The position numbers and the translations under genes are program-made. Source: Tachypleus tridentatus (lineage: Eukaryota; Arthropoda; Merostomata; Xiphosura; Limulidae). Taken from it: 64,000 nucleotides of DNA. The stretch spans positions 73,213,558 through 73,277,557 of the forward strand of contig NC_134825.1 in NCBI RefSeq assembly GCF_004210375.1, read 5' to 3'. Shown here piece after piece: positions 2,279 through 40,167 of the stretch (positions within the stretch are counted from its first letter, which is position 1; each line of letters begins with the position of its first letter). A model generated the notes under the pieces. The model was given only the letters and a program-made list of their open reading frames with translations, searched no databases and was not told the origin of the DNA.

Positions 2279-4544
2279 TTTGTAAGTTATTAAAAAGCAA
2301 CTATCTATCACCATATTGCTCTGTGCTTTTTGTTTTTTAACCTATCTTTCTCACTTACCAAATTTTTTATTCTACCACAATTTGTGAACACCTTTCACAT
2401 GCTGAGTGCACGCCCACATATCATATTTTAAAATTTAAGCAAATCATAATTCTAAATATATACGAACAGTTTTACTTAGAAATACTTTAGGCATTCAATG
2501 TATGCCACAAATAAGAATGAAAACCAATCCAGACTTTCATGTTTGTTTCCATGTGAACTCTCACGAGTTTCTCCAGTAGACAATCTACCTATTGATTTTT
2601 AACTCCTAATCCCAAATCCTATGATTGTATTTGTTAACTAATTATCGTTTCTACACATACTAATAACTCATGTTTCGTTTTTCGTACAATTTTCTTTGTG
2701 GTTTACTTGCCACAACCTTTTTATCTTAATTTTTTATGATATTACATAATTTAATCTAAACAACGACCACGACTTGTGAGTATCTTTCAGATGTTGAGTG
2801 CACACTTTTATATTAAATATTAAACTTTAAGCAAGAAATAATTCTAAATCTGTATGAACAGTTTTACTCAGAAATACTTTGTAATTAATAATTTTGTGAC
2901 ATCCATACAATGTTAAGTCACAAAGAAAAAAGGAAATCCAATCCAGATTGAACAGAGAACGTTATATACTACTTGTTTTATACAACATACTCTGAACCGT
3001 AGTGTCTGTCTGTTCGTTCATCTGTCTCCTGTTTATGACGGCCACTTCTGGTGTTGAGAGTGAAAAACTACACTAACTTGTTATGATTTAATAACACTAT
3101 CATTCACATACCAACATGTGACGTAACGGTATGTTGCTGTTGAGTGGTTCTTAACATCAATGAAATACTCAATCATTACTTGTAGTTGTTGGTATAAGTA
3201 GGTTTGTCTCTCAGAGAAACATAATTAATAATATAAATAATTTAAATTGTTACATTAACTTAAACTTTTCCCGTTATGAGATATGAATGTTTCTCTGTGA
3301 TAAGAAATTAGGTAAGGAATATAGGTTTAGAAAGTTTGATTAATAACAGCAAAATATACCAGTCATTCAAATTTATATTGAATTTTGTCTAATGAACAAT
3401 TAATTTTATGTTTGAGGGCATTAAAGTCATTTGTTGAAGCACTAGACGCAAAGAGATAAACAGAACTTCAAAACGAATTGTTTGAAAAATTCTGTTTGGT
3501 ACTGTATCTGAGATGTATACAAACTTTAGATTCCAGTTGCATACAGATAATTTGAACACATTTAATTCTAGCATTTGGTTACCATCATATAACAAGTACC
3601 ATGTTTTATATATTTTAATATAATTCAGTCCCCATATGATACAGCACTTATTGTACAGAGTTACAACGTTAAAATTAGGGTTTAAATTATTTTCTGTGAA
3701 CACAACAGATAGTCGATAAGGCTTTACTGCAGAAATAACACACACCTAATATCATTTACTTTTCTTCGATGTTATACTTGAAAAAAATGCTTATTTTGCA
3801 ATATATTTTTCAACAAATTATTTATTAATATTTTATTCAGATGTTTTGTACTTGATATAAAGTTACTAGTCCTGATTTTATTTAAATATTGATATTAGAT
3901 ATTATTACATAATCATTTGCCATATTAAATGTTGAGTTTTGTTTACATAGTTATATTTAATGGTTTGTTTTGATTTTCAGAATTCTGTCAAATATACTGC
4001 AGCATAATTATCTGAGATAACTTGAAATTACTGGCTCAAGTTTTAATGGAAACTATAAGAAGAGACGAAGGAGAAAAGAGATTTCTGTTTGTCTGCCGTA
4101 TTAATTGGATGAATTCAGTATATTGGAAATGTTTGCTTGGCTGACACAAACTTTATTTTGGAAAGACAATGTAATAAGATTCGCAACATGTTTTGTTAGG
4201 CATCGTTTTGAAAAAATATTTAAAACTACACACACATAGAAAATTATACCAGATTATTGTACATCGTCTAAAATATCTAGTTTCATACTATTTTCGATAG
4301 AATATCTTTTTGTTCTCACATAACAGCTATTATTGTTCAGTGCAGCCTTCAACATGTGAAAATATATTTGGTTCCACTAGCCTTGAAACTCTTACCTACC
4401 CCACATTTTAACTTGGTTCATCTGCGTTGTAGCATGTAAATAAGCAAGCACAACGCTTCACTGAAACATACTCTACTGTTAAAGCTGGCAGCTGGCTTCC
4501 TATTTACTGTAGAACACAACCTTTAAAGTTGACAGAAAAGAGGC
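2279..4544. other. AT-rich non-coding DNA with a diverged 100-bp duplication
   Basis: No gene is seen. Segments 2391-2489 and 2781-2880 are diverged direct copies: both contain tgagtgcac, then a run ending in attctaaat, then gaacagttttact and agaaatactt. They look like two fragments of one old dispersed repeat. The rest shows no recognised feature. Confidence 0.5.
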
Positions 4545-6167: not shown

Positions 6168-8496
6168 CAGTAGTTCTTAACTTGGGTTTAATCGAACAAC
6201 AGGGGTTTGATGAGTCAGTCTCAGGGATTCGGCGGAGGTCAAGACACCCACACTGTGTGTGTGTCCATTCCGTTCACCCCACTCGTATGATTCGTGACGT
6301 CATGCTTCACTTGGCCATCATTGGCTCCGGCTGATCACGTCACATCACTTGGCCTTAATATCTGTGCTGCAGGGAACGTCGTGACTTGTGACTGTAGTAA
6401 TTGTGCGTCATTTGTGATTTTTTCCTAATCTTTCAATCCCTTCATACTAACTACGTCGAGCGAAAACAGAAATTGGTCGAACGAATGTGTACAATATGGA
6501 TTCACGGAACATGATGGGAGTCAGCGTCCTCAATGCATGATTTGCAATGCCAAGTTGAGCAATTCTAGTCTAGCACTGGCAAAAATAAGAGAACGCTCCC
6601 TAAAGCTGCATGGAGATGGGAAATACAAGAACACAATGCTTGCTGAATTCAAGGTAAAGAGAGCCAGGTTCGATGAAAAGGCTACTTTGCCTGTTCTCGG
6701 CTTTGTACCGAACCACAAACCGATCCTCACAGCATCGTACGAAGTTGCGTATTTGATCGCAAAGAACCACACACCATTGGTGAAGCACTCGTAAAACCAG
6801 CCGCGTTGAAGATGGCGAATATCATGCTGGGCAAAGCTGCTGAAAATAAGTTATCCCAAATTCCTCTTTCAAATGACACCATCAGCAGCAGAATAGATGA
6901 CATGAGCGATGACATCTTGGCTCAAGTAGTTGCAGATCTGATTTCAAGCCCAGCAAAATTCAGCTTTCAACTCGACGAGACCACCGACGTTTTCAATCTG
7001 AGCCAGCTTGTTGTATTCTTGCGCTATGTGAAGAACAACAAGATAAAAGAAGATTATTTTTATTTTGTAAGCCTCTTACAATAACAACTAAGGCAGCCGA
7101 CGTGAAGAAACTTGTGGATGACTTCTTCAGAGACAACGATCTTTCGTGGGATATGGTTTCTGCAGTTTGTTCGGACGGAACTCCAGTCATGCTGGGACGA
7201 AACTCTAATTTTGGTGCGCAGGTAAAAGCCGATGGACAATACATCATTGTAACGCATTGTGTTCTTCACAAGCATGCATTGGCAACAAAAACCTTGCCTT
7301 CAAAACTGGCAGAAGTATTAAAAATTGTAGTGGAATGTGTGAACTTTGTGCGAAATAGTGTCATGAAGCACCGCATCTTCAAAGAACTGTGTAATGAAAT
7401 GGACTCTGAATTCGAGGTACTTCTGTACCATTCTTACGTTCGGTGGCTATCCCGGGGAAAGGTGCTGAATCGTGTTTTTGCTATGCGTGTGGAATTAGCC
7501 CTGTTTTTGCGAGAGCGCCAACATTGTCATACAGATTGCTTCGAAAAATCTGAGTTTATTCTCATTTTTGCGTACATGACCGATATCTTCAATGTTCTCA
7601 ATCATCGCAATCAACAGATGCAGGGCGGTGGAGTCAACATCATCGAAGCGGAAGAAAACCTGAACGCTCTTAAAAAAAAGCTACCGTTACGGAAACGACG
7701 AACAGAGAATGATAACTTCGCAAACTTTCCCCTGCTGGACGACTGTGTAAGTAAGGTCGAAGATGTGTCTGAAATCGGAGATATTTCTATTCCCGGGGAA
7801 CTGAAGCAAGTAATTGCCATGCACTTAGATGAGCTCGCAAAGTCTCTCGACGGATACTTCCCCACCGGAGCGTCATATCCAGCATGGGTGAGACAGCCGT
7901 TCACGTTTAGTGTTGTGACAGCAGATGTCAATGATGAATACCTCGACGAAATCATTGAACTTCAGCAGAGCCAGGTTCAACAGCAACTCTCCAGAACAAC
8001 AACTATCTCAACGTTTTGGTGTCACCAAATCGTAGCGTATCCTCTTATTGCTAAGAAAGCCCTTGAGATACTCATACCATTTGTTACAACGTAACTTTGC
8101 GAGCAATCCTTTTCGATGATGGTAGACATAAAAACGAAGAAAATGAACAGACTTTGTTGCGAAAATGATATGAGAGTGGCACTTGCCAAGGTGAAGCCGC
8201 GCATTTCTGAACATGTCTCTGAAAGGCAACAGCAAAAGTCACATTGATTTGCAGTAAATACTCTTTGAGTTATGTTTTTGTTTTTGTGTGAAATTCATGT
8301 TTTGTTTGTTTTGCTCTTTGAACACAGTGATATTGTGTGCAACTGATGCATGGTTCATTTTGTGCACTAATAAAACATTTACTTATGTTTTGAATTTGAA
8401 AAAATCATATTTTATTTTTTCAATTACGAAGGGTTCAGTGAATGCAAGTACGAAACTTCCGGGGTTCAGTGCCTCCAACAAGGTTAAGAACCACTG
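6168..8496 (+). mobile_element. hAT-superfamily DNA transposon, copy 1 (ZBED/SCAND3-like)
   Basis: This 2,329-bp element has terminal inverted repeats: the left end starts cagtagttcttaac, and the right end, read inward on the other strand, starts cagtggttcttaac. A perfect 8-bp duplication (gtttaggt) flanks it. It contains a single transposase-like coding region with a BED-type finger, a DDE-like core and a C-terminal hAT dimerisation region, on the same strand. The transposase is broken, so the copy cannot move on its own. A second, independently damaged copy lies at 36674-38934. The intact duplication suggests a moderately recent insertion. Confidence 0.95.
6453..8247 (+). pseudogene. hAT transposase pseudogene, copy 1
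   Basis: This is the remnant of a transposase related to the ZBED5/SCAND3 group. The start codon is ACG at 6453, where copy 2 has ATG. The N-terminus has a BED-like finger (CMICNAKLS then KLHG), with the first expected His replaced by Arg. A frameshift near 6750 follows a small deletion, and a second lies near 7075. The longest open part (7102-8094) contains VCSDGTPVMLGR, the VRWLSRGKVL motif and FWCHQIVAYPLIAKKALEIL of the dimerisation region. The upstream frame has LDETTD, probably the first catalytic Asp. A TAA at 8092-8094 interrupts the dimerisation region, where copy 2 reads TAT. The frame then continues through LCEQSF to a natural stop at 8245-8247. Two frameshifts, a stop and a lost start argue against a domesticated gene. 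Confidence 0.92.
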
Positions 8497-31072: not shown

Positions 31073-31608
31073 TTTGCAGACATAGCAAGAGAGTTTTGAA
31101 TTTTGCAGTTTTTCATTTTACTAAAAATATTTTGTGACAAGAACGAAGTTTCACAAAGTGTTTATTGCTGTTAATTTTGAACTGAGTAAAAGTTTCCTTC
31201 CACGAAGTACTGAAGGTCTAAGTAGGTACAATATTTGCATAAAATGAACTTGGTGCCCTTACGTAGACGGTCCAGCTTGTATATGATCATTGACGGTGTT
31301 ATCTCAACTTAAACATATTTACCCGTGATTGATTTAAAATAAATTATGATTTCAATTTGTCAAAATTAACTGCTAGTTATTGAAAAACTGTAATTTGTTT
31401 GAGTGTTGAAGTTTAACAAATACAAACTTATGTTTTTCAAGCCTTCTCAAATTATAAAAAATCAATGATTTAGTCATTGTTTTACTCAAACTTCTTCTAA
31501 ATCATCAGTCTTTTTAGGAGTTAGCTTAACGTGGAGTAAATATAACACTTGAAATTTCCTGTAAAATAAACCCCCCAAAATAGCCTATTTAATACGACTG
31601 ATAATTAG
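31073..31608. other. AT-rich non-coding DNA
   Basis: Nothing recognisable was seen. Confidence 0.45.
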
Positions 31609-31638
31609 TCCCCCGCTGGAACATCGGTAAGTCTACTG
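31609..31638 (+). mobile_element. SINE-D, left part, split by a hAT-bounded insertion
   Basis: The head reads cccccgctggaacatcggta then agtctactg. It stops at the hAT terminus at 31639. The rest of this SINE resumes at 38935. Its last 8 bp, gtctactg, match gtctacgg at 38935-38942 except for one base, consistent with a hAT target duplication. Confidence 0.82.
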
Positions 31639-31702
31639 CAGTGGTTCTTAACTTACGTTCAATCAAACCCCAGGGGTTTGGCGGAGGTCAAGACACACAT
31701 TT

Positions 31703-33245
31703 CTGAAAAGGCTACCATATTGTTTTGATCTAAGATTTCAAGGTGGTAGGTTGCTTCTTTAGTCTACTCAAAGTTTCATACTTTTTTAGACTTAAATACA
31801 GCTTAGTTACTAAGCAATGTAGTTATTTATGATTTTTTTGTTATTTAATTATATATATATGTGAAACCTGAAAAAATTTGATATCTTCCATGTGAAAAAT
31901 TTTAATAGGCTTAGCAACTTATATCCAACTGCAACTGAATTTATAGGTCGTAGCCAGAAGAGATAATTTTTTGCTTTACTTCTTTATTTATTGTTCTGTA
32001 TTTTAAGAAATATAAGTTTCATAATTTCTTTCTAAATAGTAATAATCTATAAACATATATAATGTATAATCATTTAAATGTTACTATAGATTACAAAATA
32101 CTAGTCCACTAAAACACGGCCAAGACCGGGTTAGTTTTATATTATTGGCTACGGTAATATAAGTACACATACACCATGCCAATGCAAGTTATATAATGCT
32201 AGCTAGACATGACTAGAAGGTAAATATAATAAAAAATATGTATAATTATATAATGTTATGATACTTAAATTGCTTAGACTGAACATTTATATTTTCATGT
32301 TATAATATCTTGTCATTGTAGCATGAAAAACAAATTATATTTATTTCCTAATTTTTTTATGATGATTGATTATGAAGTTGGTCAGTTGACAAACTCCACA
32401 TAAGGTATAGAAAACAACATAAAATATAAAGTCTTACAGAAATAAATATTTAAAGTATATTTAGAAGGTTCTAAAAATTACACAAATAATATTTGAGGTT
32501 TCTGGGATGAAGAATAGGTTTTTTTAAATGAGAATAGGAAATCACTTTGCACTCAGACTAACAACTAAACAAACTTATTATTTTCACAAACAAGTCTTCA
32601 GTAAAAGTCTGCCAAATCTTGTGAAAGTATATTTATGGTGCCAAAAGTTATAGGGTAGATGCTTAACATGTGCAAATGTGTATGTAAACTCCTGTATTTT
32701 ATAATGAGCTCGTTACGCCCAAATGGTTTTAAAATGTGAAACTCTAACAAAAAACTAAATATTTAGTCAAGAACCAATTAGAATTAAAATGATGTGATAA
32801 TTTTGTACTTTTAAGTAAAATATGGTTCACATGTATTGCAGATTCAAGTGTGCATATTGTTTTCCAATATGGTATTTACCTTTTCTCACAAGATTAGCTG
32901 TTCTAGTCCCATGCTTCTCTCCATATACCCCATCTACCCTGTTAGAATTGCAACATTAAAACATATGTCTTTTTCAAATCATTATGTATCACCTTCTTAC
33001 CAACCAGAGAATTACATGCTTGCATGATGTGTGCAACTCTCTAATTAACTGTGGTGATGACACAGTTCACCTTACAAATGTTTTGATTTTTTTAAGGGCC
33101 ATTGGCCTTTTTAATTTTACGTAAGTTTTTATTTGATGTTAAGCTACTGTTTTTGTTTTAACTTAATTTCCCTGTACACTTTATAATACGTTTACTGTAA
33201 TTTTTTTTACCAGTTGTTTAGCACAAATAGTCTAGTTGCTTTGCA
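31703..33245 (+). other. AT-rich cargo DNA inside the composite insertion
   Basis: No gene was recognised. The last part (from about 33095, agggccattggcc) may be the 3' region of a non-LTR element ending in the aac-rich tail at 33246. Confidence 0.4.
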
Positions 33246-33271
33246 CCATAAAACACTAAACAACAACAACC
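33246..33271 (+). repeat. Retroelement-like 3' tail (aac)n
   Basis: ccataaaacactaaacaacaac resembles the 3' end of non-LTR retrotransposons that finish in short AAC repeats. No reverse transcriptase is recognised upstream, so this is a weak inference. Confidence 0.4.
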
Positions 33272-35040
33272 CTCTATTCAACTATCACTTCTCATTTTGC
33301 ATCCTCTGGTTTGGATGTATCCTTTGTTTTTTAATGCTTCTTATTTGACTTTATTTCCTCACGGAGTAGGTTTTTTTAGATGAATTTACTTTCATCCAGC
33401 CTTTTTCTTTTATTAGTATTTTTCAGTTAATTCTAGTCCCAGTCTTCTCATTTTTGACTTTGTTCAATGGAATTTTCAATTTATAATGTCTTCTTAGCTC
33501 AATCACTTATTGCTCCATTGGTTCTATTGCAATTGGGGATATGGCCATCAATGACATTACTGAACCCCCTGGGAGCTTCACGATCGATAGAACCTTACTG
33601 TGACTTTTCTTCCCACTCTCATTTACTTTCCTATTTCTACGTGAAACAATCTGCTTTGGTGGTTTGACAAGGTTCGTATGTTGGTGAGCATGCTGTTTTC
33701 TCCCCTGCATCTGGGTCTCCATCTTTTCACAGGCATATCCTATAAGGGATAGAGGGCAAGGGTCAGTCACCCAAAGACTTTGTACTATTGGTCTACAGAA
33801 AAAAGTGCTTTCTATATATCTGTGTTCTCAAACTTCTAACTATATGTTAAGTGTTGCATCATTTCCTTTTTCTCTCTTAACATTGTCTGGTGATGGTTTA
33901 TTCAGACATTTTGATGATGATGATGATGGAACATATAAACCATCATGTCCAGAGATTTCTGCTTTTGGATGTTGGATCTTTTATATTAGGCTAATGCTCA
34001 TCACATTCACCTCATTGTGTGTCATGTGTCAGACGATTTCAATCCGGTTGTAGATCGTCTTTTGCTCCCTGACCAGATATATCCCACAGAGTGAGTATTA
34101 GATCCATTTGTTTTCAGGAATCTTTGCTCTCGGTGGAGTTCTGCCCATGTGCTATTAGCCTGAACAACAAGTTACCTCTTTTTTTGGTTACCTCCAGGCT
34201 CTGGCTGTTGATGTCTTTTTGTGTACCCACCCATCAGATTACTTCATTGGGTGATTTCTTTCATTCATTCTTTATTGGCAAGCTTAAAGCCTCAGTTTCC
34301 ATGGTTATCGCAGCTGCTATTATTCCCTCTTTTCTCTCTTCCAATTTCTTCTTACCTTCTGCATCAACTTTGGTCACATGTCCTACATCCCACCCTTCAT
34401 GTTTTTTTTTTGTCAGGTCCTTGGTGTGAAGATGTGGTTTCACAAGTCAAGTCACTTCCTTGTTAGTTGGTTCCATCTGCCCATCTTCCATGGAGGTGTA
34501 CTAATGCAAGCGGAAAGTATTCTGTTGTTGGTTTATCTCTTGAAATTTTCCACTGACCAGCATGCTGTGACTCATGTAGTAAAATTTCTCACCTGGATTT
34601 TTAACTATGAGTATGTGGTTTCCTTGCTTTCTGTATATTGGGTGGCCTTTATCCCATACATTTCATTTTTCTAATACTGTAGAGTTTTTACTTTGCCTGT
34701 CCTTGCCATGCTCAGGTATTCCTTCAAGATGCAATGCCTTCCCAGGAGAACTACCTTTTTGGACAGGAATGTTAATTTAGTCCTCCATTTTCTTTACTTT
34801 GCATCTGTTTGAACCATATTTCTCATGTTTTCCTTAAAGCAGATTTCCATCTTCCCTTAGCCTGTGAATGTCGACAGATTTGTTTCCCATGGATTTTTCA
34901 CATACTCTCTATCACCCTACCTATCTTTTTTATTCAGATTCTTTCTTTCTCTTGAAGACCTCAGAAACTCAGGAGTGTAGTTCCTCCTTTTCTTCTGTTT
35001 CTCTTCCTTCCATTTCCTATCTTTACCTTTGACTGAATTA
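33272..35040. other. Strand-asymmetric, unidentified decayed sequence
   Basis: The plus strand is strongly pyrimidine-rich (long ctttt/tctcc tracts), so the minus strand is purine-rich. Both strands have many medium-length frames broken by stops (33507-33770 and 34261-34443 on minus; 34091-34429 and 34378-34674 on plus). None has a motif I can name with confidence. Base composition differs from the AT-rich flanks, which fits an old inserted coding element. A short (gat)n run lies at 33912-33927. Confidence 0.4.
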
Positions 35041-36558
35041 TAAAGATGAAAATTTGTTGATTGTAACTTTTTTGGCTGAGTGTTCTAAGCAAAACTACTT
35101 TTAACAATACGTGTTACTTAATTCTGAAACAAAAACATTTCTCTGTCAACAAGCCATTAAAGCTTAATAGCTTGACATTATACATCATATGTAGAGTGAA
35201 GCATAGTTGCACCTATAAATACAGAATTGTTTCAATAAATTAATTCAGTTGTCAGGCATTTTTAAGTTCCAACAACAACTTGGTTGCACAGCCTTTAAAA
35301 TAAAAAGGAATAATGTTATGCACTACAACTAAAGTGTCACAACAGGATATCTTGTTAGCAGGAGAAAGTCTAACTAGATATTTTTTATCGGGTTTTCAGA
35401 GCAGGAGAGAAATATCTTATTCTTGAAGACGTAATTTAGGTGTTAAACACACAACAATGTGGCTGTATGAAGGGTGTGTAAAAAAATCAAATTATTTTTT
35501 ACCAATAAATTTATATGTTAATGTAAGATTTATACCCTTTCTTTATAACTTTAGAACTCTAGAATTTTTAAGTGTATTTAAACCGTGATTAAGGTAAAAT
35601 GGTTTATATTATTTATGGTTATCTGTATTTTGAACGCATGTAGTTAAAACGTTTTTAATGATTTTTCAGCTCCACCATTGAAAATAGTTGCTGTTTTGTC
35701 AGAAAAGAGAGAAGTTACCTTTCTAAGGTTTTTGTTATCCAGGTTGTCTCTACAAACATCAGTGTATGCTGTTGGTAGAACTCAGCTTTTTGTGTTTGTA
35801 ACTGGAAAAGAATACATGGTAAATGAAGTACAAAAACACACTTTTATGTGACCTGTTTTCGAAGCAAGCAAACAGTGTCAGACAGAAGTTAAATGATATC
35901 TATATCTTTCAGTTAATAAGTGTCTCTCTTACTTTCTGTGTATTTATATTGTCTCACTTTGTCTGTGTAAACATGCACACACACACACACACACACAGAG
36001 GACACATTCCAAGTTGTTTTATTGATTTAAATAGTGTTTTCTTAAGCTTTAATTTCAGATAATTTACCTGTTTATAGGAAATTATTAAAAAAATAACATC
36101 ATCATAATATTTTAAATTCAAAAACATATTTTCACAGTGAAAAACAGTCTTATAAAAGGTTTCAGAAAAAAATAATTTAAAAAGGTGTGGTTCATGGTTT
36201 AGATGGTTCGACTCATTATGTTTGTGTTTTAAAATGAGAACATTTGTAGATTCCTGTTTAAATCATATGTTTAAAATGAAAGAAGGTGATTAAAATGAAC
36301 TACATGTAACATTTTTCTAGACTTAACGGGCTGTGTTTTTCAGTTTTTTCATCTGATTATGTTACTTTAAGTATTAATATTGTAATGTGTTTACATACAT
36401 TGTTATACCATTTTAAGTTTTCTTTAAAATTGAATTTTAATTGGAATTTATCCTTTGTTTGGAATATGTATGTCCATCTCTTTTACATTGGTGTTTTTAG
36501 AGTAAAGATTGGCAGGATTATAAATAAAAAGTAAATTACTTTTATTCCATTACTATAT
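35041..36558. other. AT-rich non-coding cargo DNA
   Basis: No gene is seen. An (AC)n microsatellite lies at about 35975-35997. Confidence 0.5.
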
Positions 36559-36673
36559 GAGACCCAGCATGGCCAGGTGGTAAAGGCACTCGATCTGTAT
36601 TATGAGTGTCGGGAGTTCGAATCCCAATCACACCAAAAATTCTCTCCCTTTCAGCTGTGGGGATATTATAGTG
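36559..36673 (+). mobile_element. SINE-A head, cut by hAT copy 2
   Basis: The tRNA-like head is present (cagcatggccaggtggtaaa, then gagttcgaatccc, then caccaaa), followed by ctttcagctgtgggg. It ends at ttatagtg, exactly where the hAT left terminus begins. The normal continuation (acggtcaatccc) is not found after the hAT right end. Confidence 0.9.
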
Positions 36674-38934
36674 CAGTGGTTCTTAACCTGGGTTCAATCG
36701 AATCACAGGGTTTCGGGAGTCAGCTCAGGGGTTCGGTGGAGGTCAAGACACACACACTGTGTGTGTGTCCGTTTCGTTCACCCCACTCGTATGCTTCGTG
36801 ACGTCATGCTCCACTTGGCCATCATTGGCTGCGGCTGAACATGTCACATCACTTGGCCTTAATATCTGTGCTGCAGCTAACTTTGTGCGCTTAGCAGTCG
36901 ACTTGTGACTCCAGTAATCGTGCGTTATTTGTGATTTTTCCCTAATCTTTCAATCACTTCATACTAATTATGTCGAGCAAAATCAGAAAGTGGTCGGACG
37001 AATACATACAATATGGATTCACGTGTATAACGGAACATGTTAGGAGTCAGCGTCCTCAATGCATGATTTGCAATGCCAAGTTGAGCAATTCTTGTCTAGC
37101 ACCGGTAAAACTAGGATAACACTCCCTGAAGCTGCATGGATATGGGAAATACAAGAACACAACGCTTGCTAAATTCAAGGTAAAGAGAGCCAGGTTCAAT
37201 GAAAAGGCTACTTTGCCTGTTCTCGGCTTTGTACCGAACCACAAACCGATCCTCACAGCATCGTACGAAGTTGCGAAGTTGATTGCAAAGCAAGGCAAAC
37301 CACACACTTTGCACTCGTAAAATCAGCTGGGTTGAAGATAGCGAATATCATGCTGGGCAAAGCTGCTGAAAATAAATTATCCCAAATTCCTCTTTCAAAT
37401 GACACCATCAGCAGGAGAACAGATGACATGAGCGATGACACCTTGGCTCAAGTAGTTGCAGATCTGATTTCAAGCCCAGCAAAATTCAGCCTTCAATTCG
37501 ACGAGACCACCGACGTTTCCAATCTAAGCCAGCTTGTTGTATTCGTGCGCTATGTGCAAATCGACGAGATAAAAGAAGATTTTTTATTTTGTAAGCCTCT
37601 TACAGCAACAACTAAGGCAGCCGACGTGAAAAAACTTGTGGATGACTTTTTCGGAGACAACGATCTTTCCTGGGATATGGTTTCTGCAGTTTGTTCGGGC
37701 GGAACTCCAGTCATGCTGGGACGAAACTCTGGTTTTGGTGCGCTGGTAAAAGCCGATGCACCACACATTACTGTAACGCATTGTGTTCTGCAGGCATGCG
37801 TTGGCAACAAAAACCTTGTCTTCAAAACTGGCAGAAGTATTAAAAATTGTAGTGTAATGTGTGAACTTTGTGCGAAATAGTGTCATGAAGCACCGCATCT
37901 TCAAAGAGCTCTGAATTTGAGGTACTTCTGTACCATTCTAACGTTCGGTGGTTATCCCGGGGAAAGGTGCTGAGCGCCAACATTGTCATGCAGATTGCTT
38001 CGAAAAATCTGAGTTTATTCTCATTTTGGTGTACATGGCCGATATCTTCAATGTTCTCAATCAACAGATGCAGGGCGGTGGAGTCAACAACATCAAAGTG
38101 AAAGAAAATCTGAAGGCTTTTCAATAAAAGCTGCCGTTATGGAAACGACGAACAGAGAATGATAACTTCGCAAACTTTCCCCTGATGGACGACTGTGTAA
38201 GTAAGGTCGAAGATGTGTCTGAAGTCGGAGATATTTCTATACCCGGAGAACTGAAGCAAGCAATTGCCATGCGCTTAGATGAGCTCGCTAAGTCTCTCGA
38301 CGGATACTTCCCCACCGGAGAGTCATATCCAGCATAGGTGAGACAGCCGTTCACGTTTAGTGTTGCGACAGCAGATGTCAATGATGAATACCTCGACGAA
38401 ATCATTGAACTTCAGCAGAGCCAGGTTCAACAGCAACTCTCCAGAACAACAACTATCTCAACGTTTTGGTGTCACCAAATTGTAGCGTACCCTCTTATTG
38501 CTAAGAAAGCCCTTGAGATACTCATACCGTTTGTTACGTATCTTTGCGAGCAATCCTTTTCGAGGATGGTAGACATAAAAACGAAGAAAATGAACAGACT
38601 TTGTTGCGAAAATGATATGAGAGTGGCACTTGCCAAGGTGAAGCCGCGCATTTCTGAACTTGTCTCTGAAAGGCAACAGCAAAAGTCACATTGATTTGCA
38701 GTAAATACTCATTGAGTTATGTTTTTGTTTTTGTGTGAAATTCATGTTTTGTTCTTTGAACGCAGTGATATTGTGTGCAACTGATGCATGGTTCATTTTG
38801 TGCTCTAATAAAATATTTACTTATGTTTTGAATTTGAAAAAATCATATTTTATTTTTCCAATTACGAATGGTTCAGTAAATGCAAGTACGAAACTTCCGG
38901 GGTTCAATACTTCCAACAAGGTTAAGAACCGTTG
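36674..38934 (+). mobile_element. hAT transposon copy 2
   Basis: The left end reads cagtggttcttaacctggg. The right end, read inward, starts caacggttcttaacc. The copy is 2,261 bp and closely related to copy 1 over its whole length. The 8 bp before it (ttatagtg) do not recur after it. Its right flank instead pairs with the sequence before 31639. Its right end therefore also serves as the right end of the 7.3-kb composite unit. Confidence 0.92.
36970..38694 (+). pseudogene. hAT transposase pseudogene, copy 2
   Basis: ATG at 36970 starts MSSKIRKWSDEYIQYG, a better N-terminus than in copy 1. A stop lies in the BED finger region near 37111 (G-stop-HSLKLHG). Further damage includes a frameshift near 37300, loss of the DG dipeptide's Asp (VCSGGTPVMLGR instead of VCSDGTPVMLGR), a deletion after 37905 removing part of the helical insertion, and stops near 38125 and 38336. 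The C-terminal dimerisation region (38338-38694) is intact and shows how copy 1 read there: FVTYLCEQSFSRMVDIKT. The two copies carry different lesions and so decayed independently. Confidence 0.9.
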
Positions 38935-39034
38935 GTCTACGGACTTACAATGCTAAAATAAGCGTGTTTGATTATCATAAGTGGACTCAGGAAATAGCCC
39001 GAGTGACTTTATTATAAAAACACACACATACACA
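38935..39034 (+). mobile_element. SINE-D, right part, resumed after the insertion
   Basis: It starts gtctacggacttacaatgc and continues through gtggactcaggaaatagccc to a tail of tataaaaacacacac. Joined to 31609-31638 minus one 8-bp duplication, it makes one continuous SINE-D. Confidence 0.85.
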
Positions 39035-39912: not shown

Positions 39913-40167
39913 GGGCCTGGCATGGCCAAGCGCGTAAGGCGTGCGACTCGTAATCCGAGGGTCGCGCTAAACATGCTCGCCCTCCCAGCCGTGGGGACGT
40001 ATAATGTGACGGTAAATCCCACTATTCGTTGGTAAAAGAGTAGCCCAAGAGTTGGCGGTGGGTGGTGATGACTAGCTGCCTTCCCTCTAGTCTTACACTG
40101 CTAAATTAGGGACGGCTAGCACAGATAGCCCTCGAGTAGCTTTGTGCGAAATTCCAAAAAACAAAAA
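39913..40167 (+). mobile_element. SINE-A with target duplication and deleted B box
   Basis: The 11-bp duplication taaaatcagat lies at 39902-39912 and 40168-40178. The head reads gagggtcgcgctaaacatg, where the sibling copy at 22068 has about 19 more bases containing the B-box. The missing bases lie between two gtcgcg words, consistent with a short-homology deletion. The rest of the body matches the 22068 copy very closely. Confidence 0.95.

Follow-up and report, generated by a model that had tools for sequence, protein, structure and literature searches.

How did a single transposon-like unit in Tachypleus tridentatus come to combine two hAT left ends, one hAT right end and some 5 kb of unrelated DNA? 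The unit lies in the window, the whole stretch of 64,000 nucleotides that was analysed (C1:73213558-73277557, in an assembly of 2.17 Gb and 205 contigs). It occupies positions 31639-38934 (7,296 bp) within a SINE, and has a hAT left end, a hAT right end and one 8-bp target site duplication (TSD). All features are given on the plus strand of the window, the left internal junction being unstranded. The terminal motif CAGTGGTTCTTAAC was found without mismatch at both 31639 and 36674, and position 38934 is the end of its reverse complement with two mismatches. The flanking 8-mers, GTCTACTG on the left (31631-31638) and GTCTACGG on the right (38935-38942), are identical at seven of eight positions; 17 of the 63,992 8-mers in the window are at least as close to the left one. 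The left half of a SINE-D (31609..31638) ends in the left TSD, and the right TSD with the right half of the SINE-D spans 38935..39030. When the outer flanks were joined, they aligned as one continuous SINE-D with four other copies in the window. The left flank (31250-31645) was single copy except for one 33-bp match. The sequence-only reading had proposed that two left ends share one right end and one outer TSD around some 5 kb of other DNA, and that removal of the unit restores the SINE-D; the first was borne out by comparison of the ends, TSDs and interior, and the second by the alignment of the joined flanks.

A TIR-like 14-mer at 32766 was considered as a lost outer right end and was rejected, since it has three mismatches and 12 matches were found in the window against 7.55 expected. 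Elsewhere in the window, the hAT end motif occurs with a single mismatch at 3142 and 10704, and these sites are possibly more hAT remnants.

The outer left end is a truncated stub of 60 bp (31639..31698) whose sequence agrees with S-type hAT copies over their first 60-61 bp. Close to the left end, a segment of 24 bp was absent from the stub and from all 20 copies chosen by similarity to the stub (L061-L080), and was present in the inner hAT and in the 29 relatives chosen by similarity to it (L031-L060), with point changes in L040 and L055 as judged by eye and with L054 beginning late; given this way of choosing the copies, the sub-type counts are not genome frequencies. The stub and the inner hAT differ in sub-type by this indel, and therefore two elements contributed to the unit. 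The hAT family is star-like, and beyond the 24-bp segment no fixed difference between S-type and L-type copies was evident; the stub differs from the common S-type sequence at 5 of its 60 bases.

The stub breaks off within GACACACA, the first arm of a CA/TG inverted repeat. This inverted repeat was perfect in 8 of 38 aligned copies, the inner copy included, and of the 20 S-type copies only 3 had it exactly. For the inner copy, folding predicted a 10-bp stem (z -2.06), and the hairpin was not significant in a sister hAT copy at 6168 of the window (z 0.47). The junction of the stub with the adjoining DNA (31698..31699) is novel and has about 1 bp of shared sequence. With up to three mismatches allowed, both this junction and the junction of the SINE-A and the inner hAT were found at one place each in the assembly.

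The second left end belongs to a complete L-type hAT of 2,261 bp (36674..38934), and comparison of relatives, ends and TSDs indicated that its right end is common to both left ends. The element has the short TIRs of a hAT, and its relatives the 8-bp TSD. Its transposase reading frame is broken, and Dimer_Tnp_hAT (PF05699) scored just below the curated cut-off of 21.4 bits (20.8 bits, 3.4e-4), as it likewise did in the relative L057 (7.1e-4). The sister hAT at 6168-8496 is an ordinary full-length copy with a perfect TSD, gtttaggt, and makes a good family control. A central TA was present in gtctacgg, ttatagtg and gtttaggt as well as in all 19 matched TSDs of the relatives, which fits the consensus nnnTAnnn given for Buster-type hATs (PMC3517528); by its TSDs the family, whose reading frames are broken, is a putative Buster type.

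The inner hAT is preceded by the left part of a SINE-A (36561..36673) that ends in TTATAGTG (36666-36673), one half of the TSD of the inner hAT. No 8-mer matching it at seven of eight positions was found next to the right end at 38934, and three stray ones were found up to position 40000 (37847, 39286 and 39404). One end was missing in four of the 29 relatives (L036, L045, L047 and L054). Among the 25 relatives with two ends, a count in which L037 and L048 have one common site, the TSDs matched at 7-8 of 8 positions in 19, at 6 of 8 in two and at 2-4 of 8 in four. A lone TSD half is thus informative yet not unheard of, because 4 of 25 two-ended relatives were without matching TSDs. Those four (L033, L039, L051 and L053) are possible hAT-hAT recombinants or further composites. 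As for the inner hAT itself, no test could show it to be a chimera of two hATs, because the family is star-like.

The DNA between the stub and the inner hAT (31699..36673) turned out to be a 4,975-bp inverted duplicate of C1:72988561-72993198, a locus on the opposite strand of the same chromosome at a distance of 252 kb. The two copies differ at 205 of 4,604 aligned bases (4.45%; 95.5% identical) and by 20 indels. The whole interior was compared with this source directly, and three stretches (31609-31800, 32700-33400 and 34300-36560) were searched against the own genome; among the matches listed, the source was the only other close copy of the interior. Homology begins at 31699, directly after the stub, and its last base, 36673, directly precedes the inner hAT. 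At the source, an old repeat continues across the point equivalent to 31699, and six more copies of this repeat have similar sequence there by eye. The SINE-A at the source is whole and uninterrupted, an empty site without footprint. Because the source repeat runs through the first border and the SINE-A through the second, this comparison indicates that the arrangement at the source is ancestral and that of the window copy derived. The reading of the interior as the usual body sequence of a non-autonomous hAT was rejected, since the source runs unbroken past both borders and the left junction is unique.

A search of 20 kb around the source (C1:72976201-72996200) gave no match to a hAT of this family. 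As the source is without both hATs, the DNA was duplicated and not lifted from an arrangement present in the assembly. The sequence-only reading had stated that the inner hAT sits in a SINE-A at ttatagtg with no partner, which held, as no 7/8 match adjoins the right end. Its proposal to look for the interior elsewhere without the SINE-D led to the source described here, whereas a donor carrying the SINE-A and both hATs was found in part: the SINE-A locus exists, but without a hAT in the assembly.

Within the filler, old dispersed repeats were recognised from genome matches at 31704-32570, 33055-33270 and about 33860-35033. They were about 66-89% identical among the matches listed, and one repeat probably spans 33860-35033. 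A stretch of 351 bp (33875..34225) is absent at the source. Relatives of the repeat among the matches listed extend over the left edge of this stretch, and none over the right edge; because other repeat copies run across the left edge, the 351 bp were probably lost at the source later. Ten scanned frames, five in the interior and five in the inner hAT, gave no sign of a captured gene, and the sole match of the interior frames was to ComK (0.08; 13.1 bits, with the cut-off at 22.3). In the left kilobase, 23 changes were polarised to the filler side and 33 to the source side, with 10 undecided. Divergence was uneven along the filler (chi-square p 8e-4), so the dating may be distorted by gene conversion. 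Judged by its junctions and its source, the 7.3-kb block is a genuine, well-resolved composite of a 60-bp stub, about 5 kb of copied DNA and a whole second hAT.

We then compared the ages of the two parts, which are rough as they come from private differences. The divergence of 4.45% between filler and source corresponds to about 2.2% per side for the duplication. The family majority sequence differs from the inner hAT by 4.56% and from 37 relatives by 3.2-5.1%. Pairs of hAT copies of equal age with their flanks served for calibration. In three pairs (L037/L048, L063/L064 and L072/L073), the hAT parts had accumulated 2.35 times the differences of the flanks (52/3,105 vs 36/5,053, p 9e-5), and outside CpG the excess was about twofold (p 0.006). 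A fourth pair, L070/L071, was dropped after inspection, as its hAT part (42/399) was probably misaligned. With the ratio of 2.35, the corrected age of the inner hAT was about 1.9%; with the fourth pair, the ratio was nearly 4 and the age about 1.2%. By the three-pair calibration, the inner hAT and the duplication would be of about similar age, roughly within the spread of the family, although the dating is rough; by the four-pair calibration, the inner hAT would be younger than the duplication, suiting later nesting. The members of all four pairs have the same TSD and flanks and lie on one contig at distances of 80 kb to 1.6 Mb. Their flanks are only 0.6-0.8% different, and they are perhaps unpurged haplotypes or recent local duplications.

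The breakpoints, an intact source, two hAT sub-types and single-copy junctions were thus observed, and it is most likely that the block was assembled by faulty DNA copying and not by a jump of the whole block. The route that we tentatively put forward is that an S-type hAT was broken in or excised from the SINE-D, the gap repaired by copying from a hAT at the source and end-joined to the stub. In the order that we infer, an ordinary S-type hAT would have inserted in the SINE-D with the TSD gtctacgg, and a break or gap at this hAT would have spared some 60 bp at its left end, the cut lying inside the CA/TG inverted repeat. The right-hand side would then have paired with a related hAT in the SINE-A of the source locus some 250 kb off, on a source haplotype that would since have been lost or is unsampled, as this template hAT is absent from the assembly. 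Copying would have proceeded leftward through the template hAT and beyond its left end into 4,975 bp of flank, and the new strand would have been end-joined to the 60-bp stub. Such a single event would leave an outer TSD, one right end shared by two left ends, and a SINE-A whose right half is missing.

Several results are consistent with this route. The homology with the source ends exactly at both hAT borders, the stub and the inner hAT differ in sub-type, the filler is a single copy from the same chromosome, and the left junction has about 1 bp of shared sequence and lies inside an inverted repeat. The filler adjoins a hAT of the same family in direct orientation and stops at its left end, and the right half of the SINE-A is missing, which fits copying outward from a hAT; both the orientation and the loss would follow from the route. 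The similar ages of filler and inner hAT under the three-pair calibration also agree with it. On the other side, a source without hAT or footprint means that the template haplotype must be lost or unsampled. The copy at 6168 gave no significant hairpin, few S-type copies had the exact inverted repeat, and the four-pair calibration makes the inner hAT younger than the duplication.

Captured DNA within hAT ends is known in animals. One survey reports 370 animal Pack-TIRs, 208 of them hAT, which are mostly single copy and come from the same chromosome in three of five cases, and explains the single-copy ones mainly by transposition-independent gap filling (PMC8277862). The present unit resembles a Pack-hAT of that survey in its captured DNA inside a hAT, its single copy, a source persisting on the same chromosome and little or no junction microhomology; unlike those described there, a complete second hAT accompanies the filler and the source is 252 kb away. 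This distance is unusual, as 160 of 281 unique Pack-TIRs in the survey lie at most 15 kb from their source, and cuts near the ends are expected there from excision rather than internal breaks; both points speak against the proposed copying (PMC8277862). Foreign DNA with its source was found here as in a Pack-hAT, and in this star-like family the stub and the right end may have belonged to one element or to two.

This likeness leads to the main stepwise rival to copying, which we consider rather unlikely. The S-type hAT in the SINE-D would have captured the filler by gap filling, an L-type hAT in direct orientation would then have entered the captured SINE-A, and the DNA between it and the S-type remainder would have been deleted by recombination of the two. 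This history takes up the alternative offered by the sequence-only reading, in which nesting was followed by recombination of two right ends. Every step is ordinary and a lost source haplotype is unnecessary; the 4 of 25 two-ended relatives without matching TSDs are expected if hAT-hAT recombination is not rare, and a younger inner hAT under the four-pair calibration suits this order. Three separate events are required, however, with a chance insertion of the right orientation into about 5 kb, and late activity is unseen: none of the 37 relatives, a sample selected for likeness to the inner hAT or the stub, is less than 3.1% from the majority.

Maize offers a further model, which in our view is improbable for this locus. 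For Ac/Ds and bz1-m4-D6856, composite insertion by alternative transposition and re-replication was proposed (PMC4270019). Applied here, neighbouring hATs at the source, with the right end of the inner hAT facing an S-type left end, would have undergone reversed-ends transposition into an unreplicated SINE-D; on one side, re-replication would have taken in the inner hAT with 5 kb of flank, and on the other 60 bp of the S-type hAT, before it aborted and the ends were joined. In this setting, too, copying would start in a hAT and run outward. The model gives hAT termini and an 8-bp TSD around a duplicated flank. It also accounts for end joining at an internal junction and for a truncated element, and such a junction adjoining the duplicated flank was observed (about 1 bp shared at 31699). 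The locus shares with the maize insertions TSD-bordered ends, a duplicated flank by a complete element, an end-joined internal junction and a truncated element, and differs from them in being from an animal, in that no partner element was seen at the source and in its inverted copy (PMC4270019). Both hATs would be required at the source, where no family match was found in 20 kb, and by our reasoning the simplest geometry keeps the source orientation, whereas the copy here is inverted.

The sequence-only reading had favoured a macrotransposon, in which the outer left end and the inner right end moved together by cut and paste with the DNA between. One TSD does border outer ends that belong to two elements of different sub-type, and there is precedent in maize: Ac/Ds macrotransposons likewise have outer ends of two hATs that bracket other DNA and one TSD (PMC3260210, PMC9910405). 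This part of the claim stood, but movement of the whole unit was not borne out. Unlike the maize cases, the unit here gave no sign of moving as a whole, and its source is intact (PMC3260210, PMC9910405). The source is hAT-free in the assembly, and the left junction has no second copy; another copy of the unit elsewhere, which had been envisaged, did not appear, as the left and SINE-A/hAT junctions were each at one place only in the one assembly searched with up to three mismatches. In addition, a separate earlier event would be needed at the donor to fuse the 60-bp stub to 31699. A macrotransposon is one possible history among several, not the simplest, and more doubtful still. Copying out of a hAT gives a better account, because the source is intact and hAT-free and the stub is end-joined.

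That the block is an assembly artefact or a false duplication is very improbable: the four hAT-bearing pairs with the same TSDs and flanks only 0.6-0.8% apart may be unpurged haplotypes, but the filler diverges from its source by 4.45% and 20 indels, and the breaks are at transposon ends.

In form, the unit comes closest to the maize macrotransposons and composite insertions. No animal hAT macrotransposon was found among the matches listed in searches of open-access literature, judged by titles and beginnings of abstracts. Among the papers using the word 'macrotransposon' is one on Teratorn, an animal composite of another superfamily. P elements, to go by the title of one paper, reportedly captured flanking DNA and formed a new unit; they would likewise take in adjacent DNA and belong to another superfamily. 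The KolobokP lineage has a composite-like architecture in animals, but it is of another superfamily and of stable design (PMC9587614).

By these comparisons, the locus fits the animal Pack-TIR pattern and adds a complete second element to it. With breakpoints and an intact source known for an animal hAT composite, the maize and Pack-TIR models can be tested at the base level. The locus illustrates how several kb of unrelated DNA can be duplicated by hATs, leaving a unit with both transposon ends, which might in principle move. There is also a small chance that it is an Ac/Ds-like composite insertion that arose naturally in an animal, in which the ends of different hATs inserted together during replication and re-replicated 5 kb of flank. 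If so, alternative hAT transposition, worked out in maize, would also reshape animal genomes.
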